From Vicinamibacterales bacterium (GTDB lineage: Bacteria > Acidobacteriota > Vicinamibacteria > Vicinamibacterales > UBA2999), in contig JAUXWO010000100.1 in NCBI GenBank assembly GCA_030680175.1, positions 1-33,509 of the forward strand: a DNA stretch of 33,509 nt. Direction: 5' to 3'. Made by a program: the position numbers and the translations under genes. Below are positions 8,747 through 30,771 of this stretch, piece by piece (the stretch's first letter is position 1; each line of letters starts with the position of its first letter). The notes beneath the pieces were generated by a model that saw only the letters and a program-made list of their open reading frames with translations, was not told the DNA's origin and searched no databases.

Positions 8747-8770
8747 GCGATCCTCAGCTTAACGGAGGTG

Positions 8771-8830
8771 AGCCGAAAGCTGATAACCGAGAGCTGACAG
8801 CCGAGAGCTGACAGCCGAGAGCCGAAAGCC
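8771..8830. repeat. Heptamer array AGCYGAN, eight units
   Basis: Eight consecutive 7-bp units (AGCCGAA, AGCTGAT, AACCGAG, AGCTGAC, AGCCGAG, AGCTGAC, AGCCGAG, AGCCGAA) plus a partial one fill the divergent spacer between the alpha/beta hydrolase and ygfZ. The same unit occurs at 9876-9903 in reverse orientation, at 9971-10005 and at 25170-25278. Confidence 0.85.
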
Positions 8831-9970: not shown

Positions 9971-10005
9971 GCCGATAGCCGATAGCCGATAGCCGATAGC
10001 CGAGA
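9971..10005. repeat. Heptamer array GCCGATA x4 plus GCCGAGA
   Basis: Five uninterrupted 7-bp units upstream of the first LecA-like gene. Same unit family as 8771-8830 and 25170-25278. The rest of the 9858-10123 spacer shows no convincing gene. Confidence 0.9.
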
Positions 10006-18301: not shown

Positions 18302-19747
18302 ATGGTGTTTGGATCCGTCCAGGAACTCGCCGACGCCCTTGCTCCGCACGCCGCGATCAGCGGCGAGCAGATTGCCGTGACCGGCGTGCCGGCCGAGGCG
18401 CTCGTCGACCGGCTCGCGCACACGGCGGCGTTCGGCGCCACGCCGGAGATCAAGGGCACGGCGCGCTGGGTGATTCTGCACCTGGCCGCGCATGCCGGCA
18501 TCCGCTTCGCCTCCGTGCACGACATGTACATGGCGATGGGCCGCGGCGAGGCCGGGGGCTTCACCGTGCCGGCCATCAACGTGCGCATGATGGCCTACGA
18601 CACCGGCCGCGCCGTCATGCGCGCCGCCAACCGCCTCGACGTCGGCGCGTTCATCATCGAGATCGCGCGCTCGGAGATCGGCTACACCGAGCAGCGCCCG
18701 CACGAGTACGCCGCCATCATCGCCGCCGCGGCGCTGCGCGAGGGCTTCCGTGGCCCGCTGTTCCTGCAGGGCGACCACGTCCAGGTGAACGCGAAGAAGT
18801 ACGCGAGCGACGACCGGGTCAAGGAGATCGAGACGCTCAAGGCCCTGATCCAGGAGGAGCTGTCCGCCGGCTTCTACAACATCGACATCGACACCTCGAC
18901 GCTCGTGGACCTCGACAAGCCGACGCTCGATGAGCAGCAGCTCGTCAACTGCGGCCTGGCCGCCGAGTTCACCGCGCACATCCGCGGCCTGGAGCCGGCC
19001 GGCATCACCGTCTCCGTGGGCGGCGAGATCGGCGAGGTGGGCGGCAAGAACTCCGACGTGCACGAACTGCACGCCTTCATGCGCGGCTACACGCACGCGC
19101 TCGAGACCAAGGGGCCAGGGCTCGTCGGCATCAGCAAGATCAGCGTCCAGACCGGCACGGCCCACGGCGGGTTCGTCGGCGCGGACGGCACGGTCCAGAG
19201 CGACGTGAAGCTCGACCTGCAGGCGCTCGAGGAGCTGTCGCGCGTGGCGCGCACCGACTACGGCCTCGCCGGGGCGGTGCAGCACGGGGCCTCCACGCTG
19301 AGCGCCGAGCTCTTCGACGCCTTCCCCCGCGTCGGCGCCTGCGAGATTCACCTCGCGACGAACTTCCAGAACATGGTCTACGACCACCCGGAGTTCCCCG
19401 CCGCGCTGAAGGACGAGATGTACGCGTGGATCCGCGAGCACGCCCAGGAAGAGAAGAAGGCCAAGGACACCGACGAGCAGTTCCTCTACAAGGCGCGCAA
19501 GAAGGCCATCGGGCCGTTCAAGCCGCAGCTCTGGAACCTGCCCGAGGCCGTGCGCGCCGCCATCGGCAAGACGCTCGAGGACCAGTTCTCGTTCCTGATG
19601 GGCAAGCTGAAGGTGAACGGCACGCGCGCGGTGGTCGAGCGCTTCATCACGACCTACGGCCCGCTGCTGTCACGCGCCGACTCCGAAGCCGCCGCGGCCG
19701 GCGTCATCACCGCGGCCGAGCGCAAGGCCGAGGGCCTCGCGGACTGA
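18302..19747 (+). CDS. Class II (zinc) ketose-bisphosphate aldolase
   Basis: A 481-residue class II aldolase; fructose-1,6-bisphosphate is the likely substrate (glycolysis/gluconeogenesis), though tagatose-bisphosphate or another ketose cannot be excluded. Family motifs: FTVPAINVR (87-95), LQGDHVQV with Asp158 and the zinc ligand His159, FYNIDIDTST (191-200), SVGGEIGEVGGKNSD with Glu residues 242/245, GTAHGG (His288) and VQHGAS (His328), then IHLATNFQN. It is longer than the 345-360 residues of standard FbaA, with about 80 extra N-terminal residues and a C-terminal helical tail. ATG 18302 has AGAGG 6 nt upstream. It converges with the Nudix gene at 19783, and its stop codon touches a GGGGATC array. 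Confidence 0.88.
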   Translation: MVFGSVQELADALAPHAAISGEQIAVTGVPAEALVDRLAHTAAFGATPEIKGTARWVILHLAAHAGIRFASVHDMYMAMGRGEAGGFTVPAINVRMMAYDTGRAVMRAANRLDVGAFIIEIARSEIGYTEQRPHEYAAIIAAAALREGFRGPLFLQGDHVQVNAKKYASDDRVKEIETLKALIQEELSAGFYNIDIDTSTLVDLDKPTLDEQQLVNCGLAAEFTAHIRGLEPAGITVSVGGEIGEVGGKNSDVHELHAFMRGYTHALETKGPGLVGISKISVQTGTAHGGFVGADGTVQSDVKLDLQALEELSRVARTDYGLAGAVQHGASTLSAELFDAFPRVGACEIHLATNFQNMVYDHPEFPAALKDEMYAWIREHAQEEKKAKDTDEQFLYKARKKAIGPFKPQLWNLPEAVRAAIGKTLEDQFSFLMGKLKVNGTRAVVERFITTYGPLLSRADSEAAAAGVITAAERKAEGLAD

Positions 19748-19840
19748 TCGGGGATCGGGGATCGGGGATCGGGGATCGGGGATCAGTTTCCGGTCCCGGG
19801 CTCCTGGCCCCCGATCCCCGATCCCTGATCCCCGATCCCT
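19747..19840. repeat. Inverted pair of GGGGATC arrays at a convergent junction
   Basis: Five ATCGGGG units (19747-19781) are followed by about 23 bp of spacer, then the same unit in reverse (about 19809-19840). The arms can pair over about 30 bp. Each strand carries four or more runs of three to five G with 3-4 nt loops, the sequence rule for a G-quadruplex. The aldolase stop overlaps the left edge and the Nudix stop (19783-19785) lies inside, so the array also encodes the Nudix C-terminus. Confidence 0.88.
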
Positions 19841-22558: not shown

Positions 22559-23251
22559 GTGACCCCCTGGGCCGCGCACCTCTACACGGCGCTCGGCGCC
22601 GGCGCGGCGCTCGGCGCCACCCTGTCCGTCGTCGACGGCCGGTTTCGCGAGGCGTTCCTCTGGCTGACGCTGGCGGTCTTCATCGACGCGACCGACGGCT
22701 GGCTGGCCCGCACGCTCCGCGTCAAGGAGCGCCTGCCCGGCTTCGACGGCGCCCGCCTGGACGACATCGTCGACTACCTGACGTACGTGTTCGTGCCGGT
22801 CCTGCTGATGCGGCAGGCGGGGTTGCTGCCGGACGGCTGGGGCGCGGGCGTGGGCGTCGCGGTGCTGGTGGCGAGCGGCTACGGCTTCGCGCAGGCCGAC
22901 GCGAAGGTCGGCACCACGGAGTACTTCTTCACCGGTTTTCCGTCATACTGGAACATCGTCGCGTTGTACCTGTTCGTCTTGCGCCTCCCGCCCGCGGTCA
23001 ACGCCGCCGTGCTGCTGGTCCTGGCGGTGTTGGTGTTCGTGCCCATCCGGTACGTCTACCCGTCGCGCACCCGCACATGGCGGAGGGCGACGCTGACGCT
23101 CGGCGTGACGTGGGCGGCGCTCGTGCTGACGATGATCTGGCGGCTGCCAGCCGTCGACGGCCCGTGGCTGCCGCTCTCGCTGGTCTTCCCGGTGTACTAC
23201 GTCGCGCTCTCGCTAGGACTGCACTGGCGATCCCGTGACGGCAGGCAGTAA
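22559..23251 (+). CDS. pcs: Phosphatidylcholine synthase (CDP-alcohol phosphotransferase)
   Basis: A 230-residue membrane enzyme that joins CDP-diacylglycerol and choline to give phosphatidylcholine. The CDP-alcohol phosphotransferase motif DG..AR...G...D...D appears as DGWLAR (46-51) and then GFDGARLDDIVDYLTYVFVP (61-80); the LDDIVDYLTYV form is typical of Pcs. About eight hydrophobic segments follow, with FPSYWNI and PIRYVYPSRT between them, as in Rhizobium and Pseudomonas Pcs. GTG 22559 lies 2 bp after the thyX stop, so the two are co-transcribed. No choline transporter is in the window. Confidence 0.88.
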   Translation: MTPWAAHLYTALGAGAALGATLSVVDGRFREAFLWLTLAVFIDATDGWLARTLRVKERLPGFDGARLDDIVDYLTYVFVPVLLMRQAGLLPDGWGAGVGVAVLVASGYGFAQADAKVGTTEYFFTGFPSYWNIVALYLFVLRLPPAVNAAVLLVLAVLVFVPIRYVYPSRTRTWRRATLTLGVTWAALVLTMIWRLPAVDGPWLPLSLVFPVYYVALSLGLHWRSRDGRQ

Positions 23252-23269: not shown

Positions 23270-23480
23270 GTAATCACGAAGGTCACGAAGAACGACGAAG
23301 GTCACGAAGGTCAGAGACTCACAAGATCACGAAAGCACAAGATCAAGAGATCGCAGTTCAAGAGATCACAGATCACAGATCACAAGGTCTAGAGATCTCG
23401 AAATAGATTGTCGCATCGCCACATCGCGGATCGAAGATCGCCAGATCACCACGTCACCAGATCACCAGATCGCTTCATTT
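23270..23480. repeat. Degenerate CACGAAGG / AGATCAC repeat region
   Basis: About 210 bp between pcs and the MFS gene hold repeated TCACGAAGG units first, then AGATCAC units (several copies of GATCACA, GATCACC and GATCGC), ending in ATTTATCC. AT content is much higher than in the rest of the window. No ORF or RNA gene is evident. The CACGAAGG unit recurs at 29711-29848. Confidence 0.75.
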
Positions 23481-24672: not shown

Positions 24673-25088
24673 GCGAGTTCAGGTTTTCGAAGCGGATCGA
24701 GGTGCGGTTTCGGGACTGCGACCCGATGGGGCACGTCAACAATGCCGTGTACCTGACCTACCTCGAGGTGGCCCGCTTCGCCTACTGGCGTCACGTCTTC
24801 GCCGGCCACGACGCCGGGGGGCTCCAGTTCATCCTGGCCCGGATGGAGTGCGACTTCCGTGCGCAGGCGGCGATGGGCGAGGAACTCGACGTGCACGTAC
24901 GCGTGAGCCGCCTGGGCCGATCGAGCTTCGATTTCGACGCCGAGATCGTCCGCGTCGCTGACGATGTGCGCATCCTGGAATCGCGCGCGGTGATGGTGGT
25001 ATACGATTACGCGGCCCAGACCCCGGTGCCCATCCCCGAGGCGGCGCGCCGGCGGATCGAAGAGTTTGAAGGGGACGGGCGTGGGTAG
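24669..25088 (+). CDS. Hot-dog acyl-CoA thioesterase (YbgC/FadM-like)
   Basis: A 139-residue 4-hydroxybenzoyl-CoA-type thioesterase that hydrolyses acyl-CoA or acyl-ACP thioesters. The catalytic signature RFRDCDPMGHVNNAVYLTYL (residues 14-33) has the Asp and the GHVNN turn of the YbgC/FadM group, and HVRVSRLGRSSFDFD is the central hot-dog strand pair. ATG 24669 overlaps the MFS stop by 4 nt. The TAG stop (25086-25088) is made by the first unit of the RGGTAGT array, and the last residues (GDGRG) approach the repeat. Chain-length preference unknown. Confidence 0.88.
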   Translation: MSEFRFSKRIEVRFRDCDPMGHVNNAVYLTYLEVARFAYWRHVFAGHDAGGLQFILARMECDFRAQAAMGEELDVHVRVSRLGRSSFDFDAEIVRVADDVRILESRAVMVVYDYAAQTPVPIPEAARRRIEEFEGDGRG

Positions 25089-25145
25089 TAGGTAGTGGGT
25101 AGTGGGTAGTAGGTAGTGGGTAGTAGGTAGTAGGTAGTGGGTAGT
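25083..25145. repeat. Heptamer array RGGTAGT, nine units
   Basis: Nine uninterrupted 7-bp units, GGGTAGT or AGGTAGT, starting inside the thioesterase stop codon. Five GGG runs on the plus strand give a weak G-quadruplex potential. Confidence 0.95.
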
Positions 25146-25169
25146 GGAACGGCGGTCCGGCGAAGCGAA

Positions 25170-25278
25170 AGCTGATCGCCGAATGCTGAGAGCCGAGAGC
25201 CGATCGCCGAAGGCTGAGAGCCGATCGCCGATAGCCGATAGCCGACCGCTGACCGCCGATAGCAGATCGCTGACAGCC
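25170..25278. repeat. Heptamer array NGCYGAN, fifteen units
   Basis: Fifteen consecutive 7-bp units with consensus NGCYGAN (AGCTGAT, CGCCGAA, TGCTGAG, AGCCGAG, AGCCGAT and so on), ending 5 bp before the MBL-fold gene's ATG. Only one unit (AGCAGAT) breaks the C-Y positions. Same family as 8771-8830 and 9971-10005. Confidence 0.95.
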
Positions 25279-28335: not shown

Positions 28336-29703
28336 ATGGACAAGATCGTCGACTTCATCAACGTCAACCGCGACCGCTACGTCAGCGAGTTGAAGGACTA
28401 CCTCGCCATCCCGAGCATCAGCGCCCTGCCGCAGCACGCCGGTGACGTGCGCCAGTGCGCCGAGTGGACGGCGGCGCACATGCGCGGCATCGGCCTGAAC
28501 GACGTGCAGGTGTTCGAGACGCGCGGCAATCCCATCGTGTACGGCGAGTGGCTCGGCGCCGAGGGCGCGCCCACGATCCTCTTCTACGGGCACTACGATG
28601 TGCAGCCCGTGGACCCGGTGCACCTGTGGACGTCGCCGCCGTTCGAGGCGACCGTGCGCGACGGCGAGCTGTATGCGCGCGGATCGGCCGATGACAAGGG
28701 GCAGGTCTTCATGCACTTCAAGGCCATCGAGGCCCACATGAAGCAGCACGGCCGCCTGCCCGTGAACATGAAGGTGCTCATCGAGGGCGAGGAGGAGGTC
28801 GGCAGCGGCAACCTCGACGACTTCGTGCGCGAGCACCGCGATCGGCTCAAGGCCGACGTGGTCGTCATCTCGGACTCGCCGATGTTCGACCGCGGCGTGC
28901 CCTCGATCTGCTACGGCCTGCGCGGCCTGGCCTACTTCCAAATCGACGTGCGCGGCACGAAGAGCGACCTGCACTCCGGGTCGTTCGGCGGCGCCGTGGC
29001 CAACCCCGCGTTCGTGCTCGCCTCGATCCTCGCGCAGATGAAGGACAAGTCGGGCCGCATCAAGATCCCCGGCTATTACGACGACGTCGTGGAACTGCGG
29101 GAGGAGGAGCGGCAGGAGTTCGCGAAGCTGCCGTTCAACGAGCGCAAGTACCGCCAGGACCTCGGCGCGCCGAAGCTGCACGGCGAGCCGGGATACACGA
29201 CGCTCGAGCGCATCTGGGCGCGGCCGACCTTCGAGGTGAACGGCCTGCTGTCGGGCTTCACGGGCGAAGGCGCCAAGACCGTCATCCCCGCCGTGGCCAT
29301 GGCCAAGGTGAGCATGCGGCTCGTGCCGAACCAGGACCCGAAGAAGGTCGGCGACCTCTTCGAGGACTACCTGAAGAAGGTGGCGCCGAAGAGCGTCGAG
29401 GTGACGCTGACGCGGATGCACGGGGGCAAGCCGTGGATGACCGCGTTCGACAACCCCTACGTGCAGGCGGCCGGGCGGGCGATCGAGCGCGGCTTCGGAC
29501 AGAAGCCGGTCTTCAACCGCGAGGGCGGCTCGATTCCGGTGGTATCGACCTTCAGCGACGAGCTGGGCATTCCCTGTGTGCTGTTCGGTGTCGGCCTCCC
29601 CGACCAGAACGCCCACGCCCCCGACGAGAAGCTGGACCTCGGCAACTTCCACAACGGCGTGATCGCATCCGCGTACCTGTACGACGAGATCAGCCGCGGC
29701 TGA
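28336..29703 (+). CDS. M20-family zinc dipeptidase
   Basis: A 455-residue M20/M28 peptidase of the CNDP/PepV-like dipeptidase group, which cleaves dipeptides or related amide bonds in the cytosol. Metal and catalytic residues: FYGHYDVQPVD (His and Asp), RGSADDKG (bridging Asp), IEGEEEVGS (catalytic Glu and Glu ligand), ISDSPMF (Asp) and QNAHAPDEKL (His). TKSDLHSGSFGG lies in the dimerisation domain. ATG 28336 is 22 bp after the kinase stop, so the two may be co-transcribed, but no functional link is evident. It has no signal peptide. The gene is followed by the inverted CACGAAGG repeat. Confidence 0.93.
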   Translation: MDKIVDFINVNRDRYVSELKDYLAIPSISALPQHAGDVRQCAEWTAAHMRGIGLNDVQVFETRGNPIVYGEWLGAEGAPTILFYGHYDVQPVDPVHLWTSPPFEATVRDGELYARGSADDKGQVFMHFKAIEAHMKQHGRLPVNMKVLIEGEEEVGSGNLDDFVREHRDRLKADVVVISDSPMFDRGVPSICYGLRGLAYFQIDVRGTKSDLHSGSFGGAVANPAFVLASILAQMKDKSGRIKIPGYYDDVVELREEERQEFAKLPFNERKYRQDLGAPKLHGEPGYTTLERIWARPTFEVNGLLSGFTGEGAKTVIPAVAMAKVSMRLVPNQDPKKVGDLFEDYLKKVAPKSVEVTLTRMHGGKPWMTAFDNPYVQAAGRAIERGFGQKPVFNREGGSIPVVSTFSDELGIPCVLFGVGLPDQNAHAPDEKLDLGNFHNGVIASAYLYDEISRG

Positions 29704-29710
29704 GACGGAC

Positions 29711-29848
29711 GTACAAACACGAAGGACACGAAGGCCACGAAGGACGAAGAGGAATTCTCCAGTTCACGATCCCGTTCCGAACCGGATCGTTGATTGTGAA
29801 GTGCCGTCGTAACGTTCTTCGTGGCCTTCGTGTGCTTCGTGTTTGTAC
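29711..29848. repeat. Inverted CACGAAGG arrays with inner palindrome
   Basis: A 36-bp arm at 29711-29746 and its reverse complement at 29813-29848 match at 34 of 36 positions. Each arm holds three CACGAAG-type units. In the 66-nt loop, 29766-29790 is itself a near-perfect palindrome (ACGATCC...GGATCGT). It lies between two convergent genes and could terminate both transcripts or be a miniature element. Confidence 0.88.
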
Positions 29849-29850
29849 GT

Positions 29851-29884
29851 GTCAGCGCCGAATAGCGAATCGCGAATTGCGAAC
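29851..29884. repeat. Short heptamer array NGCGAAT
   Basis: Four 7-bp units (GCCGAAT, AGCGAAT, CGCGAAT, TGCGAAC), immediately downstream of the stop codon (29887-29889) of the minus-strand SirB1-like gene. Confidence 0.7.
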
Positions 29885-29886
29885 AG

Positions 29887-30771
29887 CTAGTTCAACGACG
29901 CGACACGTCGCTTGAGCGTCTTCACGTGCTCCCAGACCTGCTCGTTCTCCGCGCGCTGCTCGTCGTCGAGCTGGGCCTGGGGGGCGAGCTTCAGGAAGCG
30001 TTCGAGGTCGCGCAGCGCGGCCGTGAAGTCCTGCATGTGGTAGGCGAGCAGCCCGCGGTCGCGCAGCTCGATCAGCGACGAGGGGGTGAGGGCGAGGAGC
30101 AGGTCCGTCACCTGGCGCGCCTGCGGAAACGACCGCATCTGCACGTAGAGCCGCTTCAGGTTCAGCAGCATCCGGATGAGGATCGGCTTGCGCGTGGCCG
30201 CCGCCAGCAGCGACGGGTCGAACGCCGCCTCGTCGCCCAGGTGGCGGCGCAGCAGCGACCGGCAGTCCGCCTCCGAGAGGATGGCGCCGCCGTGGAACGG
30301 ATCGACGATGAACCCGTCCTCGGGGTCGTCGGTGTGCAGGTCGGGCCGCACCCGCACGAGGAAGTGCCCCGGGAAGTTGATGCCCTCGGCGCGGAGGCCG
30401 GCGCGGCGCGCCACCTCGATGTAGACGAGCGAGAGCGTGATGGGGATGCCGGTGCGCCGGTCGAGCACCTCGTTCAGGCAGCTGTTCCTCGGGTCGTCGT
30501 AGTGGTCGCGGTTGCCGAAGAAGCCGAGCTCGTTGAACAGGTAGCGGTTGAGCGCATCCACCCGCGCCGCGAGCGGGCCGTCGACGACGGCCTCGCGCGC
30601 CACCCGGTGCAGCGCGGCCTCGCCCATTTGATCCAGCCGGTCCAGATACGGGCCGGCGTCGAGGCGCGGATACTCCACGCGCGCGACGAGGAACGCCGGC
30701 GCGGCCAGGTCGGGGCCCGGCCGGTCGGCGGCCTTCACGAGCTGCGCGGTCAGTGTCGGCCCGGTCTTCAC
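29887..30771 (-). CDS. SirB1-like transglutaminase-fold/TPR protein
   Basis: A 294-residue member of the SirB1 family: transglutaminase-like core followed by tetratricopeptide-type helices. The core includes LGFFGNRDHYDDPRNSCLNE (Cys in the nucleophile position), RRTGIPITLSLVYIEVARR, INFPGHFLVRV (His) and GFIVDPFHGG (Asp), the usual Cys-His-Asp set. The C-terminal 110 residues hold TPR-like helices (LLNLKRLYVQM, LRDRGLLAYHMQDFTAALRDLERFLKL). The GTG at 30771 is preferred because it follows the HAD stop by 1 nt and has GAGG upstream; longer frames would overlap the HAD gene. Last gene of an operon with DUF1684 and HAD. Biological role unsettled. Confidence 0.82.
   Translation of the reverse strand: MKTGPTLTAQLVKAADRPGPDLAAPAFLVARVEYPRLDAGPYLDRLDQMGEAALHRVAREAVVDGPLAARVDALNRYLFNELGFFGNRDHYDDPRNSCLNEVLDRRTGIPITLSLVYIEVARRAGLRAEGINFPGHFLVRVRPDLHTDDPEDGFIVDPFHGGAILSEADCRSLLRRHLGDEAAFDPSLLAAATRKPILIRMLLNLKRLYVQMRSFPQARQVTDLLLALTPSSLIELRDRGLLAYHMQDFTAALRDLERFLKLAPQAQLDDEQRAENEQVWEHVKTLKRRVASLN

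Follow-up and report, generated by a model that had tools for sequence, protein, structure and literature searches.

A nested hairpin between two convergent genes

The window analysed here is the whole 33,509-nt stretch of contig JAUXWO010000100.1 (assembly GCA_030680175.1) from a Vicinamibacterales bacterium. It encodes an M20 peptidase (PF01546, PF07687) at positions 28336-29703 of the plus strand and a protein with a transglutaminase-like core and TPR (PF13369, PF13371) at 29887-30771 of the minus strand, the two gene ends, at 29703 and 29887, converging on a spacer that contains a hairpin-forming element of 142 nt (29709-29850). BLAST, a survey of copies and the conservation of its ends identify the element as a gene-less copy of a dispersed family. 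Its left arm (29709-29746, plus strand), delimited by arm pairing, TRF and an alignment of 31 copies, consists of a conserved end, ACGTACAAA, and three 9-nt units CACGAAGGN, TRF reporting a period of 9 at 29717-29745. The right arm (29813-29850, minus strand), defined by pairing and alignment, is the left arm inverted and terminates in GTTTGTACGT. Each arm is 38 nt long, 36/38 positions are paired (95% complementary), and the 66 nt between them hold an inner near-palindrome (29766-29790) with 12-nt arms that are 92% complementary and 1 nt apart; by pairing and core search this is the element's own variant of the family core GGATCCGGTTCNGAACCGGATC.

A preliminary description of the window had proposed a nested inverted repeat with a 66-nt loop, a second near-palindrome of 25 bp inside that loop and a placement between convergent genes, and the measured arms, core and gene ends bear it out in each part. 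It had also pointed to a repeat unit common to the spacer at 23270-23320, where we find a one-sided array of CACGAAGGN units (23274-23313, plus strand, by TRF) that lacks a second arm, lies in a tandem spacer and begins 23 nt past the stop of gene 22559-23251.

The folding energy of the element corresponds to z = -11.4 as RNA and z = -12.6 as DNA, and in either case it was equalled by none of 200 shuffles. Across the whole window no Rfam family matches at gathering score. The stem is not followed by a U tract; the TTTGT found there is itself paired, and the element is not among the predicted U-tract terminators. Other short-period arrays in the window lie at 8770-8830, 9971-10003, 19746-19839 and 25081-25278, and one at 29859-29889 was seen by eye.

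A dispersed family behind stop codons

With at most one mismatch allowed, the tandem unit CACGAAGGNCACGAAGG gives 221 + 210 matches in the 4.98-Mb genome, compared with 1 + 0 for the reversed pattern. BLAST with the element returned at least 112 genome matches (E ≤10; 40 of 178 candidates scored), a count in which palindromic copies show up on both strands. Our genome survey covered 783 kb of the 4.98 Mb, namely the window and 40 stretches, 10 of them contiguous from the start of contig C11 and the other 30 picked for containing matches. When two substitutions are allowed in each end, this sample holds 52 two-armed copies, which supports the earlier suggestion of a folded miniature element and shows that the site does not stand alone in the genome. 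The copies share the ends ACGKACAAAC...GTTTGTMCGT, with conservation falling off outside on both sides: the outward end has the consensus ACGK, beyond which no base exceeds a frequency of 0.5. Because these copies had been selected by their ends, we also searched with the core only, leaving the arms unused; this yielded 20 places, of which 19 have arm units to the left and right and one has them on a single side, and 0 places for the reversed control.

An alignment of 31 copies (30 from the set of 52, plus L094) shows arms that are 93% alike and interiors that are 52% alike, the interior being more alike than the arms in 0 of 465 copy pairs. RNAalifold finds little covariation in the arms (1/21 pairs), and among their three variable positions N1 covaries, in contrast to K and N2 (33 of the 52 copies usable). 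The two halves of the interior nevertheless pair better within copies than between them (permutation p 0.0006, 38 of the 52 copies); folded alone, 22 of 49 interiors reach z below -2 and the remaining 27 do not. Target-site duplications, which the preliminary description had suggested looking for, were not detected at any boundary tested (52 copies, k 3-10, offsets 0-24).

The family also occurs in compound forms. At L098:9695-10132 the element's left parts are repeated in tandem every ~100 nt, closing with one complete copy. A second palindromic repeat of 76 nt, CCCGCCTCCGCTCGCC...GCCGTAGCGGCC...GAGGCGGA, lies exactly between CCTT and CGTG of the arm unit in six copies (L084:12700-12899, L077:18692-18883, L085:10011-10268, L089:2374-2585, L089:18604-18844 and L092:18285-18467), and in L084 a copy with it and a copy without it share one spacer. 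This looks like a site-specific insertion without target duplication, and since the 76-nt repeat contains GTAG it might be a GTAG-type REP.

As to location, a simple codon-usage gene caller was used and spacers of at least 60 nt were counted. In the 783 kb a copy is held by 26/55 convergent, 24/227 tandem and 1/83 divergent spacers, and none of the 52 copies lies inside a called gene; C11:1-200000, taken whole, gives 4/10, 1/55 and 0/17, respectively. For copies in tandem spacers the median distances are 12 nt from the upstream stop and 61.5 nt from the following start (n=24, p 0.0017). In a relative of the same family, G024, units lie 0-7 nt from a stop in 9 of 12 unit-holding spacers (convergent 4/5, tandem 5/10, divergent 3/6; 2 clusters lie outside called spacers). 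The units of Dokdonella, sampled in 20 match-selected stretches with rough gene calls (coding fraction 0.75), show no preference for convergent spacers or stops (tandem 13/63, divergent 3/21, convergent 1/19; 4 outside called spacers).

Two simple accounts of this arrangement were considered and dropped. The idea that the element supplies the stop codon through its TGATCACG end fits 10 of 69 gene ends (TGA 5-6 nt from ACAAAC), and the weak conservation of the outer positions of that end was counted against it. The inverted layout might also have been a by-product of sense-oriented arrays behind each gene; however, the inward orientation of the pairs is seen in tandem spacers as well.

The preference for convergent over divergent spacers and the short distance to the upstream stop speak for a different explanation, in which the hairpins have no present mobility and are kept for a function at transcript ends, as a two-way terminator or a 3'-end shield between convergent genes. 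It also draws on the matching of interior halves within copies, on the folding of the first 150 nt past the stop in convergent spacers (median z -8.1 with the element, n=26, vs -1.5 without, n=29) and on the U-tract terminators, which are not enriched (5 vs 4.8 expected in 20 kb). Yet there is no U tract behind the stem, the arms keep their sequence and covary little, and the exact terminal pattern CGKACAAACACGAAGGNCACGAAGG has 0 matches among the GTDB contigs, a set that may not include the genome itself.

The orthologous spacers also argue against such a function. The transglutaminase-like gene is present in 29/36 genomes, our own included, and the convergent peptidase is kept at 16 of the 29 loci examined (30 matches), 15 belonging to relatives. 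In three of these the two genes are separated by 17, 25 and -4 nt and no hairpin is present; the site can therefore do without it. In a fourth, G001, the spacer measures 67 nt and contains a degenerate unit hairpin, equally compatible with an old site and with a recent gain, and the remaining relatives with the gene pair have different sequence or an extra stretch of up to 1340 nt. The same synteny test at a cytochrome-oxidase-like gene recovered the pair in our own genome alone (1/24 loci), and a transporter-like gene has matches in 4 relatives besides our own genome; the labels SirB1-like, CoxB/cytochrome-oxidase-like and transporter-like for the genes used here are ones we assume to apply. 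On balance we regard conservation for a transcript-end function as unlikely.

GxxExxY genes framed by matching arrays

The preliminary description had missed a variant of the element that carries a gene. In this variant, at L089:15441-16022 (contig C22:45441-46022), the family's arms form no closed hairpin but bracket a GxxExxY gene (PF13366/TIGR04256). The gene product matches its protein family well above the cut-off (124 bits vs 35), and no other PF13366 match was found in the genome. The stop codon is 5 nt away from the left arm, and the right arm is split by a second repeat. Among 23 GxxExxY proteins E21, E70 and K72 are invariant and D60 is conserved in at least 90%; we take the conserved E, D, E and K to be a PD-(D/E)XK site. 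By sequence the protein has no relative in the PDB and no match in PADLOC or PHROGs, and no relative was confirmed in viral contigs and phages.

Bacterial MITEs are small and non-autonomous and have inverted ends, and the element is like them in all three respects, being short and palindromic with common ends and a high copy number. A classical MITE of an insertion sequence with a DDE transposase nonetheless seems the wrong description, and we give it very little credence: the element has no target duplication at any boundary tested in the 52 copies, its arms are tandem 9-nt arrays whose spelling depends on the genome, and no parent insertion sequence with the same ends and a transposase was found in 783 kb of the 4.98 Mb. 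Among the lone arms in these 783 kb, the sole gene-enclosing pair that is convincing by eye holds PF13366 and not a transposase.

PF13366 occurs at 29 places across 19 of the 36 genomes. A tblastn match with our own protein at 1e-8 retains 24 loci (L250, L251, L256, L259 and L261 dropped out), to which L107 of G024 was added for a set of 25 from our own genome and its relatives. Unit pairs stand on both sides of the GxxExxY gene at 10/25 loci and on at least one side at 17/25. The corresponding control counts are 0 and 1 of 29 for the transglutaminase-like gene, 0 and 1 of 24 for the cytochrome-oxidase-like gene, and 3/603 and 82/603 for called genes of our own genome. A reversed motif brackets 5/25 GxxExxY loci (0/29, 0/24 and 1/603 in the controls), which may be explained by the reversed motif being readable from such arrays themselves; the opposite unit layout is seen on both sides at 1 GxxExxY locus and on either side at 2.

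The bracketing is also evident from a score that knows nothing of the unit, in which the 200 nt upstream of the gene are compared with the reverse-complemented 200 nt downstream (threshold 18; L260 was left out because its flank is too short). A score of at least 18 is reached at 19/24 GxxExxY loci vs 2/27, 6/24 and, for random genes of our own genome, 52/200 in the controls (p = 1.9e-6, 2.6e-5 and 1.1e-8). Flanks match within a locus in 19/24 cases vs 108/552 across loci at the same threshold; 5 of the 24 loci score under 18, and L239 and L258 among the 19 are long loose alignments. Units agree within a locus and differ between loci (CACCGAG in L238, CGCGAAG in L241, CACAGAG in L244), and in G024 the GxxExxY gene lies between arms in that genome's own dialect.

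The 52 of 200 random genes that also score at least 18 would suit an account in which slippage and template switching grow arrays and palindromes and GxxExxY genes merely gather in the same flexible spacers. Short-period arrays are indeed abundant, the 783 kb containing 216 with periods of 6-9 (101 of 9, 90 of 7, 24 of 8 and 1 of 6), and heptamer arrays in the same facing layout occur in several convergent spacers without the nonamer. Against this, matched arms are more frequent at GxxExxY loci than in any of the three control sets, two of which were drawn from the same relatives, and copies at unrelated sites have ends and core in common, so that we regard slippage as an improbable source of the family.

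GxxExxY homologues were also found on 8 plasmid records. In Gemmatirosa kalamazoonensis the gene, with a broken frame, is flanked on either side by a complete mini-hairpin, both of one family (L262:1274-1356 and 1860-1943; flank score 60 vs a maximum of 28 in 200 shuffles), and this mini-hairpin matches at least 40 and at least 39 places on the organism's two megaplasmids, counts in which a palindrome may appear on both strands. On a Bacteroides finegoldii plasmid the gene is preceded at 28 nt and followed at 9 nt by CACAGAGGA-type arms (score 24 vs a maximum of 17 in 200 shuffles), and Bernardetia is marginal (score 22, with 200 shuffles reaching 24). Arms are absent at the gene in 5/8 records, those of Persicobacter, Sphingomonas, Treponema, Fusobacteria ZRK30 and Prevotella. 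In Sphingomonas parapaucimobilis (L264:1468-1896) the armless gene is set tightly between fabD and fabG.

Repeat dialects, known systems and a candidate role for the GxxExxY protein

A looser two-arm pattern matches 24 stretches from organisms of several phyla. The unit triple CRCRRAGRN is present in 16/36 genomes, our own included, with one match in all for the control, and an exact double unit occurs in 38/297 genomes of the phylum. Among the matches listed, the spelling of the unit varies by genome, being CACAGAGGACGCAGAG in G047 and CACGGAGGGCGCGAAG in G036. A mini-element from a Phycisphaerales MAG gave no match by blastn to plasmids and phages, and CACGAAGGACACGAAGG and further strings were not found in the papers searched. 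Nested forms are seen elsewhere: in a Verrucomicrobia MAG (L126, L130, L131, L137, L138) and Methylobacter marinus A45 (L142, L147) a nonamer hairpin lies, by eye, within a longer inverted repeat, and at Dokdonella L193:5062-5242 a CACGGAG-type hairpin is nested in a CACGAAG-type hairpin, both with TGAAACAC ends.

REPINs, as described by Bertels and Rainey (2011, PMC3116915), have conserved inverted ends and a variable spacer that pairs, are extragenic, are spelled in a genome-specific way and are accompanied by a framed RAYT gene. The element resembles them in its two conserved inverted ends that form a hairpin, in its variable pairing spacer, in its many extragenic copies and in being accompanied by a separate gene, at another place in the genome, that is bordered by these repeats. 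It differs in that its ends are tandem 9-nt arrays and not a 16-mer REP, and in that the framed gene is PF13366 GxxExxY and not the Y1 HUH transposase of the REPIN system (PMC3116915). REPs of the GTAG/CGTC kind, characterised in PMC3733652 as palindromic, 20-40 bp long and tagged GTAG or CGTC, are likewise found mainly in convergent and unidirectional spacers downstream of coding regions; by comparison with that account, our element is ~140 nt long with ACGKACAAAC ends. Neither tetranucleotide stands at the element's end, where the consensus is ACGK.

It could be asked whether the family consists of REPINs moved by a RAYT (a Y1_Tnp HUH transposase). The general anatomy is REPIN-like, our own genome has three Y1_Tnp genes, and Y1_Tnp and unit counts across the 36 genomes are weakly correlated (Spearman 0.32, p 0.056), almost as well as PF13366 and units (Spearman 0.34, p 0.044). 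But there is no exact CACGAAGG within 1.5 kb of any of the three genes, other flanking repeats are apparent at the one Y1_Tnp gene that was read, neither GTAG nor CGTC is consistently present at the ends, and two genomes have unit triples without a Y1_Tnp match. We therefore hold a RAYT to be a very unlikely agent here.

For PF13366, presence is weakly associated with that of unit triples (36 genomes; table 12, 7, 4, 13; Fisher p 0.023). The correspondence is incomplete: G014 and G047 lack a PF13366 match despite 26 and 66 unit triples (assemblies 92 and 86% complete), G006 and G044 have 1 and 2 and no match, and G021 has 51 with only a PF13366 fragment below the cut-off. Since co-occurrence does not decide between the two partners, the case for the GxxExxY protein rests on the flanks of its gene. 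In the literature searched by name (GxxExxY, PF13366, PDDEXK_3, TIGR04256) no role in repeats was found for this family; PMC8934634 places a GxxExxY annotation next to a reverse transcriptase.

On this basis we propose, with a probability of roughly 0.55, that the element at 29709-29850 is a gene-less copy of a REPIN-like palindromic interspersed repeat, and that the GxxExxY protein likely spreads such copies in trans via the arms. The ends of the element are formed by inverted arrays of the 9-nt unit CACGAAGGN, closed by ACGKACAAAC, and in this genome the full form of the family has one GxxExxY (PF13366, PD-(D/E)XK-like) gene between the same arms. The protein may recognise or cut the arms or the arm hairpin and so let gene-less copies spread, much as RAYT transposases are supposed to do for REPINs, GxxExxY thereby taking the RAYT's place within a REPIN-like system. 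We further infer that copies would persist where they are least harmful, directly behind stop codons, and that there they may provide transcript ends with a long hairpin.

Beyond this genome, and at somewhat less than even odds in our estimation, the loci may belong to a widespread and so far undescribed class of mobile elements, in which genes for GxxExxY PD-(D/E)XK nucleases, set between inverted arrays of 8-10-nt units (often CRCRRAGRN), yield gene-less intergenic hairpins. Such a class, a nuclease counterpart of RAYT/REPIN, would be represented in the lineage of the window and in Gemmatimonadota, and in Bacteroidota at least by framed genes. If the GxxExxY protein does drive these repeats, a protein family so far named for its motif would gain a function, and a second enzyme class, unrelated to the RAYTs, would be seen to maintain palindromic repeats in bacterial genomes; the 9-nt unit arrays found in many phyla would then be explained as well.
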